This document shows, piece by piece, positions 619 through 10,466 of a stretch of 56,973 nt of DNA (its first letter is position 1; each line of letters opens with the position of its first letter). Source of the DNA: a virus; the IMG/VR virus record IMGVR_UViG_3300010354_002996, positions 1 through 56,973 of that record; one strand, given 5' to 3'. The notes under the pieces were generated by a model. That model worked only from the letters and a program-made list of their open reading frames with translations, did no database searches and had not been told where the DNA came from. Both the position numbers and the translations under genes were made by a program.

Positions 619-2009
619 AAAAACTTATTGCAGTCTTTCTTGCTTTATTTGTTACTGTAGCGTATGCTGAAGACCTTGGCGGCAACTTCGGTTTTGAAAA
701 CGGTAATCTAACTGGATGGATTATCAGTAATGGTGGTTCATTTAAGTCAGCCACGAGTTGGAGTTCTGATGGTAGTGGTGTTAGTGTTACTAATGGTATA
801 ACGAACTATAGTCCTGGTGGTGGTAACACATGGAATGTTACTGGTTATGGTTCTTATATGGCCAGTATTCAAGCTGGTTCTGGCTCTCCAACATTTGATT
901 CTTCGACTGCATCTTTAGGTCTAACAGGAACAGAAAATACTGCGATCAAAAACTTCTTGACAGCACAGGGTGGCAATTCAAATCCAACTAATGCTTCATG
1001 GATGAAAAGGAATGTTACACTAGAAGCTGGTAAAACATATACGATAGCATGGCAATATCTATCTACAGATTATGTTCCATTCAATGATGGATCGATGATT
1101 ACATTAACACACGCAACGAATTCTGGTATTATTCCTACACTGAACAATGAACAAAAAAGATATGCTCTACTTGGATTTACGAATCCAGGAACTGGTAACT
1201 ATTCAACAGGCAGCTATGCATCTACTGGTTGGCAGTTGGCAATATTTACTGTTCCAGAGAACGGCGAATACTCATTAGGATTTGCTTCATTTAATCTCGG
1301 CGATACTGCTTTGAGTCCTATTCTATTAGTAGATCAGATACAAGGCACAACTACATTGAATGGAACAAACTTTGATCCTATCGCACCAAATGCTGGTTCT
1401 ACTGCACCGACTACACCAACACAACCGCCAGCTCCATCCTATGCTAGTTCTATAACAACACAACAACAGAACAGAGTTAACACTTGGTTGAATCGTGGTA
1501 ATAACTCAAGTGGCGTTTATATAGATCAGATCGGCAATTATAATAACATAACAGTTCTACAGAAAAATCATAAAGATAACTATATCAAATATCAAGGCAC
1601 AGGAAATAACAATAATATAAACATAATACAGAAAACGGATAATGGAACTGGTGCTGGTCATTATCTTGAGTTGGGTAGTATAGGTAATCAGAACACCATT
1701 AATCTTACACAGGATAATAATGGCGGTAAGAAGATGTTTGTTGATAACAATGGGTCTGGTAACAACATTAATGTTACACAGAAGAATGGTGGTCAACATT
1801 ATCTTGATTTAGGATTAACTGGTAACGGTCATTCTGCTACCATTGTTCAAGAAGGTTCTGGCAACCATGCTGCCACGATACGCCTAAATAATTCTGGCGG
1901 TTCATCTAATTTGAATCTTAGTCAATCTGGAACTACCAATCAAGTATATTCAATCGAACAAACATGCACAAATCCAGCTGGATGTAGTGTATCGGTGACA
2001 CAACAATGA
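615..2009 (+). CDS. Secreted curlin-repeat (amyloid-like) protein
   Basis: 464 residues. A clear signal peptide (MKKLIAVFLALFVTVAYA, predicted cleavage after Ala18) sends it out of the cytoplasm. Residues about 20-260 form a Gly/Ser/Thr-rich beta domain opening with GFENGNLTGW, a motif seen in carbohydrate-binding-like and anchor-type extracellular domains. A Pro/Thr linker (about 261-278) leads to residues 295-464, a run of curlin-type repeats of about 20-25 residues: DQIGNYNNITVLQ, GTGNNNNINIIQ, GSIGNQNTINLTQ, GSGNNINVTQ, GSGNHAATI and more. The Q-x-G-x-x-N-x-x-x-I-x-Q periodicity is that of CsgA/CsgB. A Cys pair lies at the extreme C-terminus (CTNPAGC). The gene is coupled by ATGA overlaps to its upstream neighbour and to the cyclase downstream. 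Curli-related clusters are reported, as I recall, in pelagimyophages; function there is unclear. Confidence 0.8.
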   Translation: MKKLIAVFLALFVTVAYAEDLGGNFGFENGNLTGWIISNGGSFKSATSWSSDGSGVSVTNGITNYSPGGGNTWNVTGYGSYMASIQAGSGSPTFDSSTASLGLTGTENTAIKNFLTAQGGNSNPTNASWMKRNVTLEAGKTYTIAWQYLSTDYVPFNDGSMITLTHATNSGIIPTLNNEQKRYALLGFTNPGTGNYSTGSYASTGWQLAIFTVPENGEYSLGFASFNLGDTALSPILLVDQIQGTTTLNGTNFDPIAPNAGSTAPTTPTQPPAPSYASSITTQQQNRVNTWLNRGNNSSGVYIDQIGNYNNITVLQKNHKDNYIKYQGTGNNNNINIIQKTDNGTGAGHYLELGSIGNQNTINLTQDNNGGKKMFVDNNGSGNNINVTQKNGGQHYLDLGLTGNGHSATIVQEGSGNHAATIRLNNSGGSSNLNLSQSGTTNQVYSIEQTCTNPAGCSVSVTQQ

Positions 2010-4051
2010 AGAAACTAGTCGCATTTATTATTCTTGCATTATTCGTATTCTTGAAGGTGATGGATTATTCACCTGTTGAAATATTGCGACTAAAGACGTT
2101 TGACTATTTGCTAACAAGCAAAACGCCAGTCAAATCAGACAATGTTGTTATTGTTTCTATTGATGAAAAATCAATAAAAGAAAAAGGTCAATGGCCATGG
2201 TCACGCAAAGATATTGCTGAGACCATGGCGTCTTTGTTCAAGCAGGGCGCAGGAATAGTTGTATTCCCTGTGCTTATGTCTGAAAAAGATAGAATGGGCA
2301 CTGATGAAATCCTTTCTGAGTTTCTGACGAAACAGAAGGGCGTTGTTATATCACAAACGCCAACAACTCAGAAAGGAAATGGAAATGCAGTTGTTCGTGG
2401 ATATTCAGCTATTGGTGGCGACGTTCTACCTTACATTGCTAGGTGGAATAGTGTTATCGGTCCTCTACCCGATTTTGGTAAGAATGCTTCGGGCGTCGGG
2501 ATGGCAGCAACCATTCCTGAAAGGGACGGCGTTGTACGCCGCATCCCTATGCTTGTGGCTATTGGCGAGTCTATATATCCCTCGATGGTTTTGGAATCTA
2601 TACGTGTCGCTGTAGGATCACCATCGTTTCAAATTAAATCTACAGACGCAGGAATAGAAGCAGTCAGAGTCCGTGGATTCAAACCTCTGACGACTGATTC
2701 TAACGGTAGAATATGGCTAGACTGGAACTATCAATTCAATAAGATATCACATACAGATATTGGTAAGACTGATCTTAAAGGTAAGATAGTAATTCTTGGA
2801 TTGGAAGTAGAAGGTGTTGGCGGAATTATTGCTACACCATTAGGATCGAAATGGTCTCATGAAATACAGGCAATTGGAATCGAATCGGCGATACAAGGTA
2901 AGACTCCAGTTCGCTTTGCATTCGCTAATCTTCTTGAAGCAATGAGTATTGCTATTATTGGTATTGCGGTGATCTTACTTACACCGATACTATCACCCGT
3001 CGTAACATACTTATTATATCCCATATTTGTTGGTTTGTCAAGTCTTTTTTCTTACTATATGTTCAAAGATTATGGACAACTATGGGATGTCAGTTTCCTG
3101 ATTGTATCGTTCACTATCGTGTTCGGATACATGGTCATACTAAAGTTCCTCAAAGAACTGTTTCTCAAACTACAGATCAAGAAACAGTTTGGCACTTATC
3201 TGTCTCCTGCATTAGTTGAGAAGTTGCAGAAGAACCCAGACTTACTTAAACTAGGAGGAGAAACCCGTGAGCTGTCAATTATGTTTACGGATGTTCGTGG
3301 TTTTACTGCTATTTCTGAGCACTATGGTGATAATGTGCAAGGTCTTACGCAAATAATGAATCGCTACATGACGGCGATGACGGAGAAGATTATTAAGAAT
3401 GAAGGCACATTAGATAAGTATATTGGTGATGCTCAGATGGCTTTCTGGAACGCTCCATTAGATAATCCAAGACATGCTAGAGACGCAGTTAAAACAGCAT
3501 TGGAGATGTTAGATGATCTGGATTCTTTTAATAAGGAGATCGCCTCTGATGGTGTTCCTCCTTTTGGAATGGGCATTGGTATTAATACTGGCTCTGTTGT
3601 GGTGGGTAATATGGGGTCAACACAACGTTTCGATTATACATGTTTGGGCGATTCTGTCAACTTGGCTTCGAGGCTAGAAGGTCAGTCAAAGAATTATGGT
3701 GTTCGTTTGGTTATCGGCGAAGAAACTGCTAAACAAATAATGAACGATTTCCATGTCATAAAACTTGATGTGATAGCAGTTAAAGGTAAAAAGATTGGCG
3801 TCGGAATATATACAATAATATCAGCTGATGACATTATGCCCGTATATCATGCTACACATAAAGACTTTAGAAAATTCTATGAAAAAGGTGATTGGAATCA
3901 AGCGTTAGAATTCCTAAAAGTATTGAATAGCAATCGTGTATTCAATGGAGTTCTCAAAGAATATTATGAAATGATGGAAGAAAGAATATTAGAATATAAA
4001 GCCAATCCACCTAAAGATTGGGATGGAACATATCGTGCAACTAGTAAATAA
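2006..4051 (+). CDS. CHASE2-domain class III adenylate/guanylate cyclase
   Basis: 681 residues with the full bacterial CHASE2-cyclase layout. There is an N-terminal membrane anchor (about residues 5-20) and a periplasmic CHASE2 sensor (about 24-300, with VVIVSIDEKSI and GQWPWSR motifs). Three membrane segments follow (about 308-328, 331-351, 362-382), then a cytoplasmic cyclase domain (about 420-605). Catalytic residues appear complete: metal Asp429 in FTDVRGFT and Asp475 in DKYIGDA, base-recognition Lys471 and Asp543/Thr545 in FDYTCLGDSVN, and transition-state Asn552 and Arg556 in NLASR. The Lys plus Asp pair favours ATP, hence cAMP, over GTP. A C-terminal helical tail (610-681) resembles a TPR-like pair. 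The ATG overlaps the stop of the curlin-repeat gene (ATGA), so both come from one transcript. Assignment is secure; a signalling role in infection is inferred. Confidence 0.93.
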   Translation: MKKLVAFIILALFVFLKVMDYSPVEILRLKTFDYLLTSKTPVKSDNVVIVSIDEKSIKEKGQWPWSRKDIAETMASLFKQGAGIVVFPVLMSEKDRMGTDEILSEFLTKQKGVVISQTPTTQKGNGNAVVRGYSAIGGDVLPYIARWNSVIGPLPDFGKNASGVGMAATIPERDGVVRRIPMLVAIGESIYPSMVLESIRVAVGSPSFQIKSTDAGIEAVRVRGFKPLTTDSNGRIWLDWNYQFNKISHTDIGKTDLKGKIVILGLEVEGVGGIIATPLGSKWSHEIQAIGIESAIQGKTPVRFAFANLLEAMSIAIIGIAVILLTPILSPVVTYLLYPIFVGLSSLFSYYMFKDYGQLWDVSFLIVSFTIVFGYMVILKFLKELFLKLQIKKQFGTYLSPALVEKLQKNPDLLKLGGETRELSIMFTDVRGFTAISEHYGDNVQGLTQIMNRYMTAMTEKIIKNEGTLDKYIGDAQMAFWNAPLDNPRHARDAVKTALEMLDDLDSFNKEIASDGVPPFGMGIGINTGSVVVGNMGSTQRFDYTCLGDSVNLASRLEGQSKNYGVRLVIGEETAKQIMNDFHVIKLDVIAVKGKKIGVGIYTIISADDIMPVYHATHKDFRKFYEKGDWNQALEFLKVLNSNRVFNGVLKEYYEMMEERILEYKANPPKDWDGTYRATSK

Positions 4052-6066: not shown

Positions 6067-6756
6067 ATGAGAATGCGATTTGATTATTCACCACATATTG
6101 ATTTGCCTAAAGCAAAACAAATCAATTCACCAGCGGGACGTCGTTATCAAACTCCCGCTGGTAGTCTTTATCCTTCCATAACAACTGTTCTTGGTGATCA
6201 GCCAGAAAAGAAACGTTCGCTCGCGGAATGGCGCGCTCGCGTAGGCGCGGAAAAGGCACAGGCAATATCTACGCAAGCAGCACGGCGCGGAACTAATCTT
6301 CACAATCTCATGGAAAAGTATATCCTTGGCGATGACGTTGATCCTAAAACAGTTCTTCCTTCAACTATCGCGCATTTCAAACCAGTAAGAAAATGTGTTG
6401 ACAAAAACCTTCAGCTGGTATATACTACTGAAACTTCAATGTATTCTGATTTGCTACGAATAGCAGGAACTGCTGATTTGATCTGCGAATGGGACGGCGA
6501 AGTTACGGTGGTTGATTTCAAGACTTCGCGAACTATGAAAACGCGCGAAATGATTCACGACTACTTCCTGCAAGCAACCGCATACACAATCATGTTCGAA
6601 GAACATACGGGAATCGAAACCTATAATATCGCTATCTTAATGGTCACGGATGAAGGCGAGTTTCAGGAGTTCCGCGGTCATCGAAATGATTATGTGGCGG
6701 ATTTGTTGAATGTTCGTAATGAATATGAAAAAAGAGTCTTGACAAATACACTCTAA
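6067..6756 (+). CDS. PD-(D/E)XK-family exonuclease
   Basis: 229 residues, or 227 from the ATG at 6073. The RecB-like nuclease core is visible: GTADLI with Asp138, VVDFKTS with Asp150 and Lys152, and the downstream Q-A-T-A-Y motif that often follows in Cas4/RecB-type enzymes. The N-terminal part contains YPSITTVLG and the helix RRGTNLHNLMEKY, both typical of this group. Similar genes in T4-like marine phages are annotated as exonucleases acting in DNA processing or host-DNA degradation. It follows phoH by 21 bases, has its own predicted promoter, and precedes the tmRNA. Confidence 0.85.
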   Translation: MRMRFDYSPHIDLPKAKQINSPAGRRYQTPAGSLYPSITTVLGDQPEKKRSLAEWRARVGAEKAQAISTQAARRGTNLHNLMEKYILGDDVDPKTVLPSTIAHFKPVRKCVDKNLQLVYTTETSMYSDLLRIAGTADLICEWDGEVTVVDFKTSRTMKTREMIHDYFLQATAYTIMFEEHTGIETYNIAILMVTDEGEFQEFRGHRNDYVADLLNVRNEYEKRVLTNTL

Positions 6757-6765
6757 TGATATAAT
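6739..6765 (+). promoter_or_regulatory. Strong sigma-70-like promoter for the tmRNA
   Basis: A perfect TTGACA (6739-6744) and a perfect TATAAT (6760-6765) with a short 15-base spacer straddle the 3' end of the exonuclease gene. Transcription would begin about 6772, immediately before the acceptor piece of the tmRNA. Both hexamers match consensus, so host RNA polymerase should read it without phage factors. Confidence 0.7.
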
Positions 6766-6778
6766 ATAAATATATTGT

Positions 6779-7130
6779 TATCGTTGAAGTTGACGATAGA
6801 CGGATCGGACGTGGGGGCAGTACCCACCGCCTCCACCATGGATGCATCGTTCTCAAACCTGCTTAGGAAAAGCACCCGAGAACATAGCGCTCACTGTTTT
6901 GGTCGGGAAACCATCTACGGTGCATCTTTGATGGGGGCGAAATAGGATCGACGGACGTTGATGCGGAGATGGAGATAACGGGATGATCGCCTCATAGATC
7001 AAAAACCATAGGTGCCAACGATAATGTTGCTCCTCGTTACGCTCTAGCAGCCTAACATGAGTTTTCGGTGGGTTTGACTTGGAAACAGAATAAACCCACC
7101 AACTTATGCGCCTGAGGGAGAGGCGTGCGC
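6779..7130 (+). ncRNA. ssrA: Circularly permuted two-piece tmRNA
   Basis: The acceptor piece comes first and ends in CGCCTCCACCA (6828-6838), with a 5-bp T stem (6811-6815/6823-6827) and a 7-base loop GGCAGTA. A 94-base intervening segment (6839-6932) follows, whose ends pair (GATGCA 6841-6846 with TGCATC 6921-6926). The coding piece begins GGGGGCG at 6933. That 5' end pairs with CGCCTCC in a perfect 7-bp acceptor stem including the G3-U pair that marks alanine tRNAs. The tag frame at 7014-7055 reads ANDNVAPRYALAA then stop. Downstream helices include 7067-7075 with 7092-7100. The permuted order is the alphaproteobacterial form, processed into two RNAs that with SmpB rescue stalled ribosomes. 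Outer ends are approximate; I could not resolve helix P2. Confidence 0.93.
7014..7055 (+). other. tmRNA proteolysis-tag reading frame
   Basis: The resume codon GCC is at 7014, the stop TAA at 7053-7055, and the encoded tag is ANDNVAPRYALAA. The AND(N) start and the ALAA end match known ssrA tags, and AANDN-type tags are characteristic of alphaproteobacteria. The C-terminal LAA is the ClpXP/ClpAP recognition signal. The upstream TAGGT corresponds to the conserved TAGTC that positions the ribosome. Confidence 0.93.
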
Positions 7131-7171
7131 TAAACAAAATATCCCCTCACCTTTTAGAGGATGAAAGCAAG

Positions 7172-7741
7172 ATGATAATGCAAGAACGAATAGATAATTA
7201 CTGCAAAATCACTGGCTTTCCGAAATCACTCTTCTTGAGTGAAGACGGCAGAGTTGTCGGAACTTGGATTATGGGCAACGCATATGGAGTCCAGTCAGGA
7301 TATTATGGGGGATATCCAGCTGGATATCTCAAACGCATAAAAGCACTTTTTCCAGACAAACAACGCTGCCTGCACCTATTTTCAGGTAAGGTGGATCAGT
7401 CTGCTTTTCCTGGGGATACTGTTGACATAAATGATACATTGCAGCCCACATATGTGGACGATGCTCAATCCCTTGAAAACGTCCCTGTCGAGAACTACGA
7501 CATAATTCTCGCGGACCCACCATACAGCATTGAGGACTGTGATCATTATCAGACAACGATGGTAAAAAGAAACAAAGTATTACGCGCACTAAGTAAGGCA
7601 AACAAGGGGACCCATGTTGTTTGGTTAGACCAAGTTCTGCCTATGTATCGAAAAGAAGAATGGAAAATGGTCGGCGTCATAGGAATGGTGAAATCGACAA
7701 ATCATCGGTTTCGCGTTGTGACAATATTCGAGAGAACCTAA
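7172..7741 (+). CDS. DPPY-motif DNA methyltransferase-like protein
   Basis: 189 residues from the ATG at 7172; AGAGG lies 11 bases upstream. The frame is open from 7106, but that would overlap the tmRNA. A SAM-binding motif LHLFSG and the catalytic ADPPYS motif (Asp115-Tyr118) are present, followed by WLDQVLPMYRK and STNHRFR, which recur in a phage and bacterial family of small adenine-type methyltransferases. There is no separate target-recognition domain, so it is probably an orphan enzyme without a restriction partner. It could modify phage DNA against host restriction or mark it for regulation. Base specificity cannot be read from sequence; DPPY suggests N6-adenine. Confidence 0.8.
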   Translation: MIMQERIDNYCKITGFPKSLFLSEDGRVVGTWIMGNAYGVQSGYYGGYPAGYLKRIKALFPDKQRCLHLFSGKVDQSAFPGDTVDINDTLQPTYVDDAQSLENVPVENYDIILADPPYSIEDCDHYQTTMVKRNKVLRALSKANKGTHVVWLDQVLPMYRKEEWKMVGVIGMVKSTNHRFRVVTIFERT

Positions 7742-8520: not shown

Positions 8521-9372
8521 ATGTCATTTTATGATGATTGTGGTAATGATAAACCATTGAGCATTATCGCTGGTCCTTGTGTGTTTGAATCAAAGGACCA
8601 TGCGCTAGAAATGGCTGATCGTTTGCGTAATATAGTCCAAGATGTTGGATTTGTATTAGGGCGACCAGTCAACTTCATATATAAGACGTCCTTCGATAAG
8701 GCGAATCGAACATCTGCGGGAGGTTATAGAGGTGCGGGGTTCGATGAAGCGTTTTATGGAATGGACGCCGTCCGTGGATTAGGTATTCCTGTTCTTACGG
8801 ACGTTCATGACCCCTGGCAATGCGGAGCGACGAATGCTGACATCATACAGATTCCCGCTTTCCTTTGCAGGCAGACTGATCTACTCGAGGCAGCAGCACA
8901 GACTGGCAAACCAGTCAATGTCAAGAAAGGTCAGTTTCTTTCACCACAAGAAATGACGAACGTGGTGGAAAAGTTGGAGCATTTTGGTTGCAATAAAATT
9001 ATGCAAACTGAACGCGGAACAACATTTGGTTATAATAATCTAGTTGTTGATATGCGTTCGCTTGATATTATGAAACGCAACCAATATCCCGTTATCATGG
9101 ATTGCACTCATGCAGTCCAGCTTCCTGGAGGACAAGGAACATCATCTGGTGGTCAACGTGAATTCGTAGGAACTCTTGCTCGCGCTGCAGTTGCTGTTGG
9201 CGTGGCGGGCGTTTTCATGGAGGTTCATAACGATCCTGATAATGCTCCGTGTGACGGACCCAATATGTTAAATCTTGACATGTTCGAAGATCTACTATAT
9301 GATTTGTTTAAGATTGATCGAGTGAGAAAGGAAATTGATCATGAAAGACGACTTCAAGGAAGACAACAATAA
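8521..9372 (+). CDS. kdsA: 3-deoxy-D-manno-octulosonate 8-phosphate synthase, metal-dependent type
   Basis: 283 residues. It condenses phosphoenolpyruvate with arabinose 5-phosphate to Kdo-8-phosphate, the first committed step of lipopolysaccharide inner-core Kdo. Family motifs run through the protein: AGPCVFES, IQIPAFLCRQTDL, NVKKGQFLSPQEM, ERGTTFGYNNLVVDMRSL, QLPGGQG, SGGQREFV, DGPNM. Metal ligands are intact with the right spacing: Cys20, His197, Glu234 and Asp245. Cys in place of the Asn of E. coli KdsA marks the metal-dependent class. Length is normal. The last 32 bases overlap the clpP-like gene in another frame. A complete, apparently functional kdsA in a lytic phage suggests redirected LPS synthesis during infection. 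Confidence 0.95.
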   Translation: MSFYDDCGNDKPLSIIAGPCVFESKDHALEMADRLRNIVQDVGFVLGRPVNFIYKTSFDKANRTSAGGYRGAGFDEAFYGMDAVRGLGIPVLTDVHDPWQCGATNADIIQIPAFLCRQTDLLEAAAQTGKPVNVKKGQFLSPQEMTNVVEKLEHFGCNKIMQTERGTTFGYNNLVVDMRSLDIMKRNQYPVIMDCTHAVQLPGGQGTSSGGQREFVGTLARAAVAVGVAGVFMEVHNDPDNAPCDGPNMLNLDMFEDLLYDLFKIDRVRKEIDHERRLQGRQQ

Positions 9373-9913
9373 GACGTTTGCTCCTACGCTAGAAGAAAAG
9401 CACTACTATCTATTCAATAAAGATTTTAATCATGATTCCTGTGGAGATGCCCTTGCCTTTATCCTAGAACGTAATCTTATGGATAAAGATCGCCCCAAAC
9501 AAATCAAAATGATTATCAACTCTTATGGTGGCGTTGTTGATGCAGCATTCGCACTTATCGATACCATGAAGGGATCTCGTATTCCAGTCTTTACATACGG
9601 TCTTGGTTGTATTGCCAGTTGCGGTCTGATGACATTCATCGCTGGTCAAAAGGGAAAGCGATTCATTACTCGTAACACATCAATTCTTTCACATCAGTTT
9701 TCTTGGGGAAACTTTGGTAAGGAACATGAACTGTTTGCTACAGTAAAAGAATTTACCAACACTCAGCAGCGTATCGTAGAACATTACAAACGTTGCACAG
9801 GAATGACAGAAAAGAATATCAAGAAATATCTGCTTCCACCTGAAGACGTATGGCTAACGGCAAAAGAAGCAGTTAAATATGGCATCGCAGATGAAATAGT
9901 GGAGTGGTATTGA
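9341..9913 (+). CDS. clpP: ClpP-like serine protease
   Basis: 190 residues from the ATG at 9341, with AAGGA upstream. The Ser-His-Asp triad sits at Ser93 (CIASCG), His118 (SHQF) and Asp169 (PEDVW). The intervals (25 and 51) nearly equal those of E. coli ClpP (25 and 49). MIINSYGG and the VDAAFALIDTMK helix are also typical. It lacks the N-terminal loop needed for tight ClpX/ClpA docking in a recognisable form, so it may be stand-alone or recruit host Clp ATPases. Starting inside kdsA suggests coupled translation. This phage also encodes a tmRNA whose tag is a Clp degradation signal, a possible functional link. Confidence 0.88.
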   Translation: MKDDFKEDNNKTFAPTLEEKHYYLFNKDFNHDSCGDALAFILERNLMDKDRPKQIKMIINSYGGVVDAAFALIDTMKGSRIPVFTYGLGCIASCGLMTFIAGQKGKRFITRNTSILSHQFSWGNFGKEHELFATVKEFTNTQQRIVEHYKRCTGMTEKNIKKYLLPPEDVWLTAKEAVKYGIADEIVEWY

Positions 9914-9914
9914 T

Positions 9915-10466
9915 ATGGGACTTATAAATGGTAAGGTATGGGGTAATACAAGCGCACTCATTCAGAATTCGTTCGTAGAATTTCATCGGATTAACGCAAA
10001 AGCAGGTTATCGTTGTTCGGAGCATAAACATGCACACAAGTGGAACGCTTTCTATGTCATTTCTGGAGAACTTGAAATTCATGTACGAAAGAATGATTAT
10101 GATCTCACCGACGTCACTGTTCTCAGAGCAGGCGACTTTACTACTGTTTCTCCTGGCGAATATCATTGGTTCAACTGCACCGTCGATTGCGCTGCGGTAG
10201 AACTGTATTATCCAGAAGGCATCAGTGAAGATATTCAGCGCAAGAGCGTTGGCGGCGCAAATGTAACGAAAAAGTCACCTTGCGTTTCTATTTGTAAACT
10301 CGATGAAGTGACTGGTAAGTGCGTTGGTTGTGGTCGCACTATTGAAGATATTCAAGACTATGGTAACAAGTATCATACTCTCAGAGGTACTGTAACAAAA
10401 TATGTTATTCAGGATGAGCTGGTTGCAGAAGCAGTAGCAGCAGTTGATAAGGAACGTGGTAAATGA
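9915..10466 (+). CDS. Cupin-DUF1289 fusion protein
   Basis: 183 residues in two parts. Residues 1-105 form a cupin barrel with a metal-site pattern (EHKHAHKWNAFYVISGELEIHV, G-D-F-T-T-V-S-P-G-E-Y-H); the His residues and the later Glu/His could hold a metal. Residues 118-145 read SPCVSICKLD...GKCVGCGRTIEDI, the Cys-rich signature of DUF1289, otherwise found as short bacterial proteins. The fusion is unusual. It starts 1 base after the clpP-like stop and overlaps gp33 by ATGA. Catalysis cannot be inferred; cupins bind small ligands or carry out oxygenation and isomerisation, and the Cys cluster may bind Zn or Fe-S. Confidence 0.8.
   Translation: MGLINGKVWGNTSALIQNSFVEFHRINAKAGYRCSEHKHAHKWNAFYVISGELEIHVRKNDYDLTDVTVLRAGDFTTVSPGEYHWFNCTVDCAAVELYYPEGISEDIQRKSVGGANVTKKSPCVSICKLDEVTGKCVGCGRTIEDIQDYGNKYHTLRGTVTKYVIQDELVAEAVAAVDKERGK

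Follow-up and report, generated by a model that had tools for sequence, protein, structure and literature searches.

The window, the whole stretch of 56,973 bases analysed here (one IMG/VR virus record, IMGVR_UViG_3300010354_002996), carries a complete and conserved gene for a permuted two-piece tmRNA. We consider it very likely that this locus is a working ssrA gene used for ribosome rescue in infection, and that it belongs to a T4-like phage of the Melnitz/pelagimyophage-like kind. Phage-borne two-piece tmRNA is already known and the window is a further member of this class, while findings in the spacers of its relatives may be the new part.

Structure and setting of the tmRNA gene

A sequence-only reading of the window had placed a permuted two-piece tmRNA at this position, starting at 6779. 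The only gene that ARAGORN reports in the window is a permuted tmRNA at 6742-7146 on the plus strand with the tag ANDNVAPRYALAA. Rfam cmscan of the whole window matches RF04321 (tmRNA_permuted, 6776-7055, 115 bits, E 9e-22) and RF01849 (alpha_tmRNA, 6735-7100, 114.9 bits, E 1e-30). The scores exceed the gathering thresholds (47 and 50, respectively) by a wide margin, and both models are matched end to end without truncation. The identification and the location are thereby confirmed with the programs that the reading had named as a check, and only its start has to be corrected, as the mature acceptor piece probably begins near 6776, a few bases upstream of 6779. Both the sequence and ARAGORN give the gene order as acceptor piece with an encoded CCA, spacer and coding piece. 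The features of the locus are as follows.

6067-6756, plus strand: T4-like PDDEXK exonuclease gene, the conserved upstream neighbour of the tmRNA (phrog_298, E 1.4e-62; 24 relatives in IMG/VR)
6739-6767, plus strand: sigma-70-like promoter TTGACA-17-TAATAT, from conservation in the family; overlaps the exonuclease gene end
6765-6772, plus strand: TATAAATA, T4-type late-promoter motif shared by the window and about half of its relatives; overlaps the -10 box
6776-6838, plus strand: acceptor (tRNA-like 3') piece (RF04321 alignment; sequence)
6811-6827, plus strand: T arm, stem GTGGG/CCCAC (sequence)
6828-6834, plus strand: acceptor 3' strand CGCCTCC (sequence)
6835 and 6836-6838, plus strand: discriminator A and CCA (sequence)
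6839-6932, plus strand: intervening (spacer) segment, 94 nt, putatively removed (sequence; terminal-stem covariation across 25 sequences)
6840-6850 with 6917-6927, plus strand: spacer terminal stem, 11 bp
6933-7100, plus strand: coding piece (ARAGORN, Rfam); 3' end uncertain, 7100 by Rfam and 7146 by ARAGORN
6933-6939, plus strand: acceptor 5' strand GGGGGCG, the coding piece starting at G6933 (sequence)
7014-7055, plus strand: tag reading frame ANDNVAPRYALAA plus TAA, GCC..TAA (ARAGORN; sequence)
9335-9913, plus strand: ClpP-like protease gene, 2.3 kb downstream of the tmRNA (PF00574, 113.8 bits; start codon uncertain)

The CCA end at 6838, the coding piece from 6933 and the perfect 7-bp acceptor stem between them can be read directly from the sequence, as had been claimed. 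This stem (GGGGGCG/CGCCTCC) consists of two standard pairs, G3-U70 as the third pair and four further standard pairs. The 94-base segment with pairing ends is likewise present, and UUGAU sits between its terminal stem and the coding piece. The open tag frame has an AA ending.

The portal, large terminase, sheath, baseplate wedge, gp32, gp59 and PhoH genes identify the window as a T4-like myovirus, in agreement with the earlier reading; its presumed lytic character is drawn from this T4-likeness. The portal protein is nearest to those of T4-like cyanophages (about 56% identity). A gene for a CHASE2-domain adenylate/guanylate cyclase lies at 2006-4051, and among about 50,700 phage records Melnitz and Pelagibacter phage HTVC008M alone have relatives that cover at least 80% of it; this links the window to their group. 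Also present are a gene for DAHP synthase, the entry enzyme of the aromatic amino acid pathway (8521-9372, PF00793, 227 bits), and a cupin domain fused to DUF1289 (9915-10466). A chimeric assembly with bacterial DNA is rejected because both flanks of the tmRNA gene are syntenic in the independent contig L123 at 84-90% identity.

Conservation of the gene in a phage family

Relatives were collected by scanning viral contigs in IMG/VR with the upstream exonuclease, which yielded 24 contigs at 63-96% identity. All 24 carry a permuted tmRNA, in most cases directly behind the exonuclease and in L138 about 1.4 kb further downstream. Behind the tmRNA, most of the relatives checked have a tRNA-Gln (TTG) gene (L124, L128, L131-L133, L136, L138, L142 and L144-L146); ARAGORN finds none in the window.

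Across the 25 sequences, the pairs G1-C, G2-C, G3-U70 and G7-C of the acceptor stem are always kept, and pairs 4, 5 and 6 vary with changes that are mostly compensated on both sides, giving stems such as GGGGGCG/CGCCTCC, GGGGACG/CGTCTCC, GGGGGTG/CACCTCC and GGGCTGG/CCAGTCC. The T stem covaries at three pairs and the spacer terminal stem at all nine pairs counted, where the counts refer to sequences and not to independent events. These compensatory changes in three stems make a good case that the RNA is maintained. Every family member read has an open, AA-ending tag frame with a variable middle (for example ANDNAPISYALAA and ANDNALIETRLAA); the tag VSATKFFAPQLV given by ARAGORN for L146 is a misread of the true frame ANDNAPVAMALAA.

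The promoter is also conserved, with TTGAC[A/G]-17-TANNAT present in front of the tmRNA gene in 25 of 25 family members. The copy in the window agrees with the consensus at 10 of 12 positions and its single-sequence score is no better than chance, so that the weight for this promoter rests on conservation. The late-promoter motif TATAAATA is weak as evidence, since the window holds eight plus-strand copies against about four expected from composition.

The acceptor stem is imperfect in two relatives. That of L141 has one mismatch, and that of the close relative L123 (5640-6080) is broken, with GGGGGCG set against CCAGTCC; this may reflect a loss that is tolerated in some phages, a recombinant or an assembly error. 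The broken stem favours the view that the tmRNA is a passenger captured from a host chromosome, kept by chance and now decaying, as does the report that host ssrA genes are common integration sites whose fragments are found in prophages (PMC9004378). Such an origin is nevertheless very improbable and for the family largely refuted by the compensatory changes, the open tag frames, the invariant promoter and the persistence of the gene in relatives down to 63% exonuclease identity. Moreover, the phage tmRNAs are not nested in the sampled bacterial clade. In a tree of the tmRNA core, the family of the window falls outside a single clade (100/99) made up of 52 alphaproteobacterial rows. As the bacterial rows were chosen by exact sequence pattern, this gives no more than a hint against a recent capture of the phage genes from hosts. 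The idea that the tmRNA points to the host group is not supported in view of this separate clade and of Melnitz, which has an alpha-type tmRNA and a host outside Alphaproteobacteria.

The spacer as a site of exchange and insertion

The spacer has a median length of 86 nt in the phages and of 36 nt in 105 bacterial genes measured, a sample that was taken by pattern and does not represent the whole class. Its terminal stem is about 10 bp long in the phages compared to 5 bp in the bacteria, and shuffled sequences give a mean of 3.5 bp. In the phages this stem is placed at a nearly fixed distance from both the CCA and the coding piece. A structured spacer interior is unsupported: the interior, with a mean z of about -0.6 against shuffles, is not unusually stable, and the stability therefore lies in the terminal stem.

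Comparison of individual loci shows that phages exchange the spacer separately from the coding piece. In L139 and L140 the acceptor pieces and the first 150 bases of the coding piece are identical and the spacers differ. The coding pieces of the window and L123 are 96% alike and their spacers 41%, and L124 and L125 share an exactly identical acceptor piece and spacer with coding pieces at 63%. L123 itself looks like the product of an exchange with an L133-like gene, or an assembly error. One spacer sequence, cassette A, was found in ten viral stretches, always inside a tmRNA gene and together with several different acceptor and coding pieces. A transposon was considered for cassette A and rejected; with 10 of 10 copies located in tmRNA spacers, the pattern agrees more with exchange at the locus than with free transposition. 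Cassette A labels on the coding-piece tree require seven changes and are no more clustered than shuffled labels, which fits free exchange, as far as the short alignment behind this test allows. By exact 25-base search, the spacer of the window was found in no other phage.

In some relatives the spacer holds a gene. The spacer of L132 is 489 nt long and contains an open frame of 144 residues (L132:5828-6262) that matches the HNH family PF01844 with E 3.5e-4 and 21.1 bits, just under the cut-off of 21.4. The full-length putative HNH protein occurs in nine loci including L132 (the others being L276-L283) at 64-100% identity, corresponding to about seven independent loci as L277/L278 and L279/L280 look like duplicates. 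In all nine the gene sits behind the CCA and ahead of the coding piece of a permuted tmRNA. Six different acceptor stems, fully paired and all with G3-U70, occur among the seven distinct tmRNAs. The coding-piece signature is absent from all 71 loci that have only a partial or more distant HNH match. Rfam confirms the tmRNA in four of six insert-bearing loci scanned, with the match spanning the insert in three, and ARAGORN misses the tmRNA genes with an HNH insert; length-limited tmRNA finders thus overlook such genes.

A hairpin with TATAAATA precedes most of the spacer HNH frames. The homing endonucleases of T4 are expressed late, and the hairpin recalls them. We lean, by a narrow preference, towards a picture in which the spacer is a mobile niche with cassette exchange and, in some phages, a dedicated HNH homing endonuclease. 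The tmRNA gene would be the homing target, the insert would be harmless as host RNA processing excises it, and the 94-nt spacer of the window would be an endonuclease-free allele. The splitting of the tmRNA in two may create a harmless gap that exchangeable spacers and homing endonucleases can occupy, and mobile elements would then have a new place to live within an essential RNA gene. A search of the open-access literature returned no earlier report of an HNH endonuclease in the spacer.

Proposed function and comparison with known systems

The suggestion that the virus brings its own rescue RNA and tag holds as far as a complete, conserved gene is concerned, and a working function is most likely, judged from sequence. 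Starting from the observed gene structure, covariation and conservation of gene and promoter, we propose the following course of events. A precursor consisting of the acceptor piece, spacer and coding piece would be transcribed from its own promoter, and the terminal stem of the spacer would stack near the acceptor stem. Host tRNA-processing enzymes would cleave behind the CCA and 5' of G6933, and the two resulting pieces would stay joined as one tmRNA through the acceptor stem and other helices. Host alanyl-tRNA synthetase could then charge it via the G3-U70 pair, and the charged tmRNA would enter stalled ribosomes with host SmpB and EF-Tu. An SmpB gene was found neither in the window record nor in 15 related records, so the host protein is presumably used and the function of the tmRNA would depend on the host. 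After addition of ANDNVAPRYALAA, the product would be released and degraded by Clp proteases. The phage might benefit from the recycling of ribosomes during host mRNA breakdown and the shutoff of host RNA synthesis. General ribosome rescue during infection is, in our judgement, the most likely role. That a broad group has kept the gene in one position, with covariation, suggests that these phages gain from bringing ribosome rescue along.

It is also conceivable, and in our estimate unlikely, that the tmRNA tags and degrades host proteins or steers one infection step in place of general rescue. The ClpP-like gene downstream favours such selective tagging: alignment to a solved ClpP indicates that the Ser, His and Asp triad positions are kept, the triad thus being apparently intact, and the protein is a possible partner in degrading tagged proteins. 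However, tmRNA acts on stalled ribosomes and does not choose particular proteins. The ClpP-like gene is, moreover, confined to the window and L123, and 14 of the 16 tmRNA-bearing records, fragments in some cases, lack it; the case for tmRNA and ClpP as a linked module is accordingly weak. Selective tagging has a precedent in the recycling of host proteins that was proposed for Melnitz (PMC9004378). A decoy that inhibits host trans-translation, comparable to the tmRNA of phage DS6A without a coding sequence (PMC11915505), is extremely improbable, as the whole family retains the coding piece, the resume region and a tag that ends in AA.

High novelty of the locus is not supported. A two-piece ssrA in the T4-like genome of Methylophilales phage Melnitz (MZ577097) was published in 2022; in that study ARAGORN suggested 53 two-piece tmRNAs across 18,146 phage genomes, and marine or aquatic samples were the source of 50 (PMC9004378). 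The window and its conserved family add a well-supported case to these. A further permuted tmRNA, unannotated, is present in Mesorhizobium phage Cp1R7A-A1 (L002:2939-3348), with the tag VAANDNHFEARALAA according to ARAGORN. Like the window, Melnitz has an alpha-type permuted tmRNA (RF04321, 113 bits) in a T4-like phage, and the two share a neighbourhood of PhoH, PDDEXK nuclease, ssrA, gp59 and gp32. The Melnitz tag ANDNYVPVDYALAA is similar to that of the window, and its spacer is also long (142 nt) with ends that pair. In contrast to the window, Melnitz has two small genes between nuclease and ssrA and a glutamine riboswitch right behind ssrA (52.8 bits). An Rfam search of window positions 6600-7300 that admitted E values up to 10 detected no such riboswitch; according to the authors of the Melnitz study, this element is not defining for the Melnitz-type locus (PMC9004378).

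With respect to alphaproteobacterial tmRNA (RF01849/RF04321), the window matches the whole model, while the spacers of the bacterial genes measured are about half as long and have a shorter stem. A 2025 database counts 79 unique phage tmRNAs of all forms; among the spacer insertions it names are one tRNA-Ala gene and one repetitive element, and no endonuclease was seen among them (PMC11915505). It also describes a tmRNA with a group I intron and a LAGLIDADG homing endonuclease (PMC11915505). The relatives of the window resemble this case in having a homing-type endonuclease gene within a tmRNA, at a site absent from the mature RNA. They differ in that an HNH gene occupies the spacer of a permuted gene, where its removal would be part of normal spacer processing.
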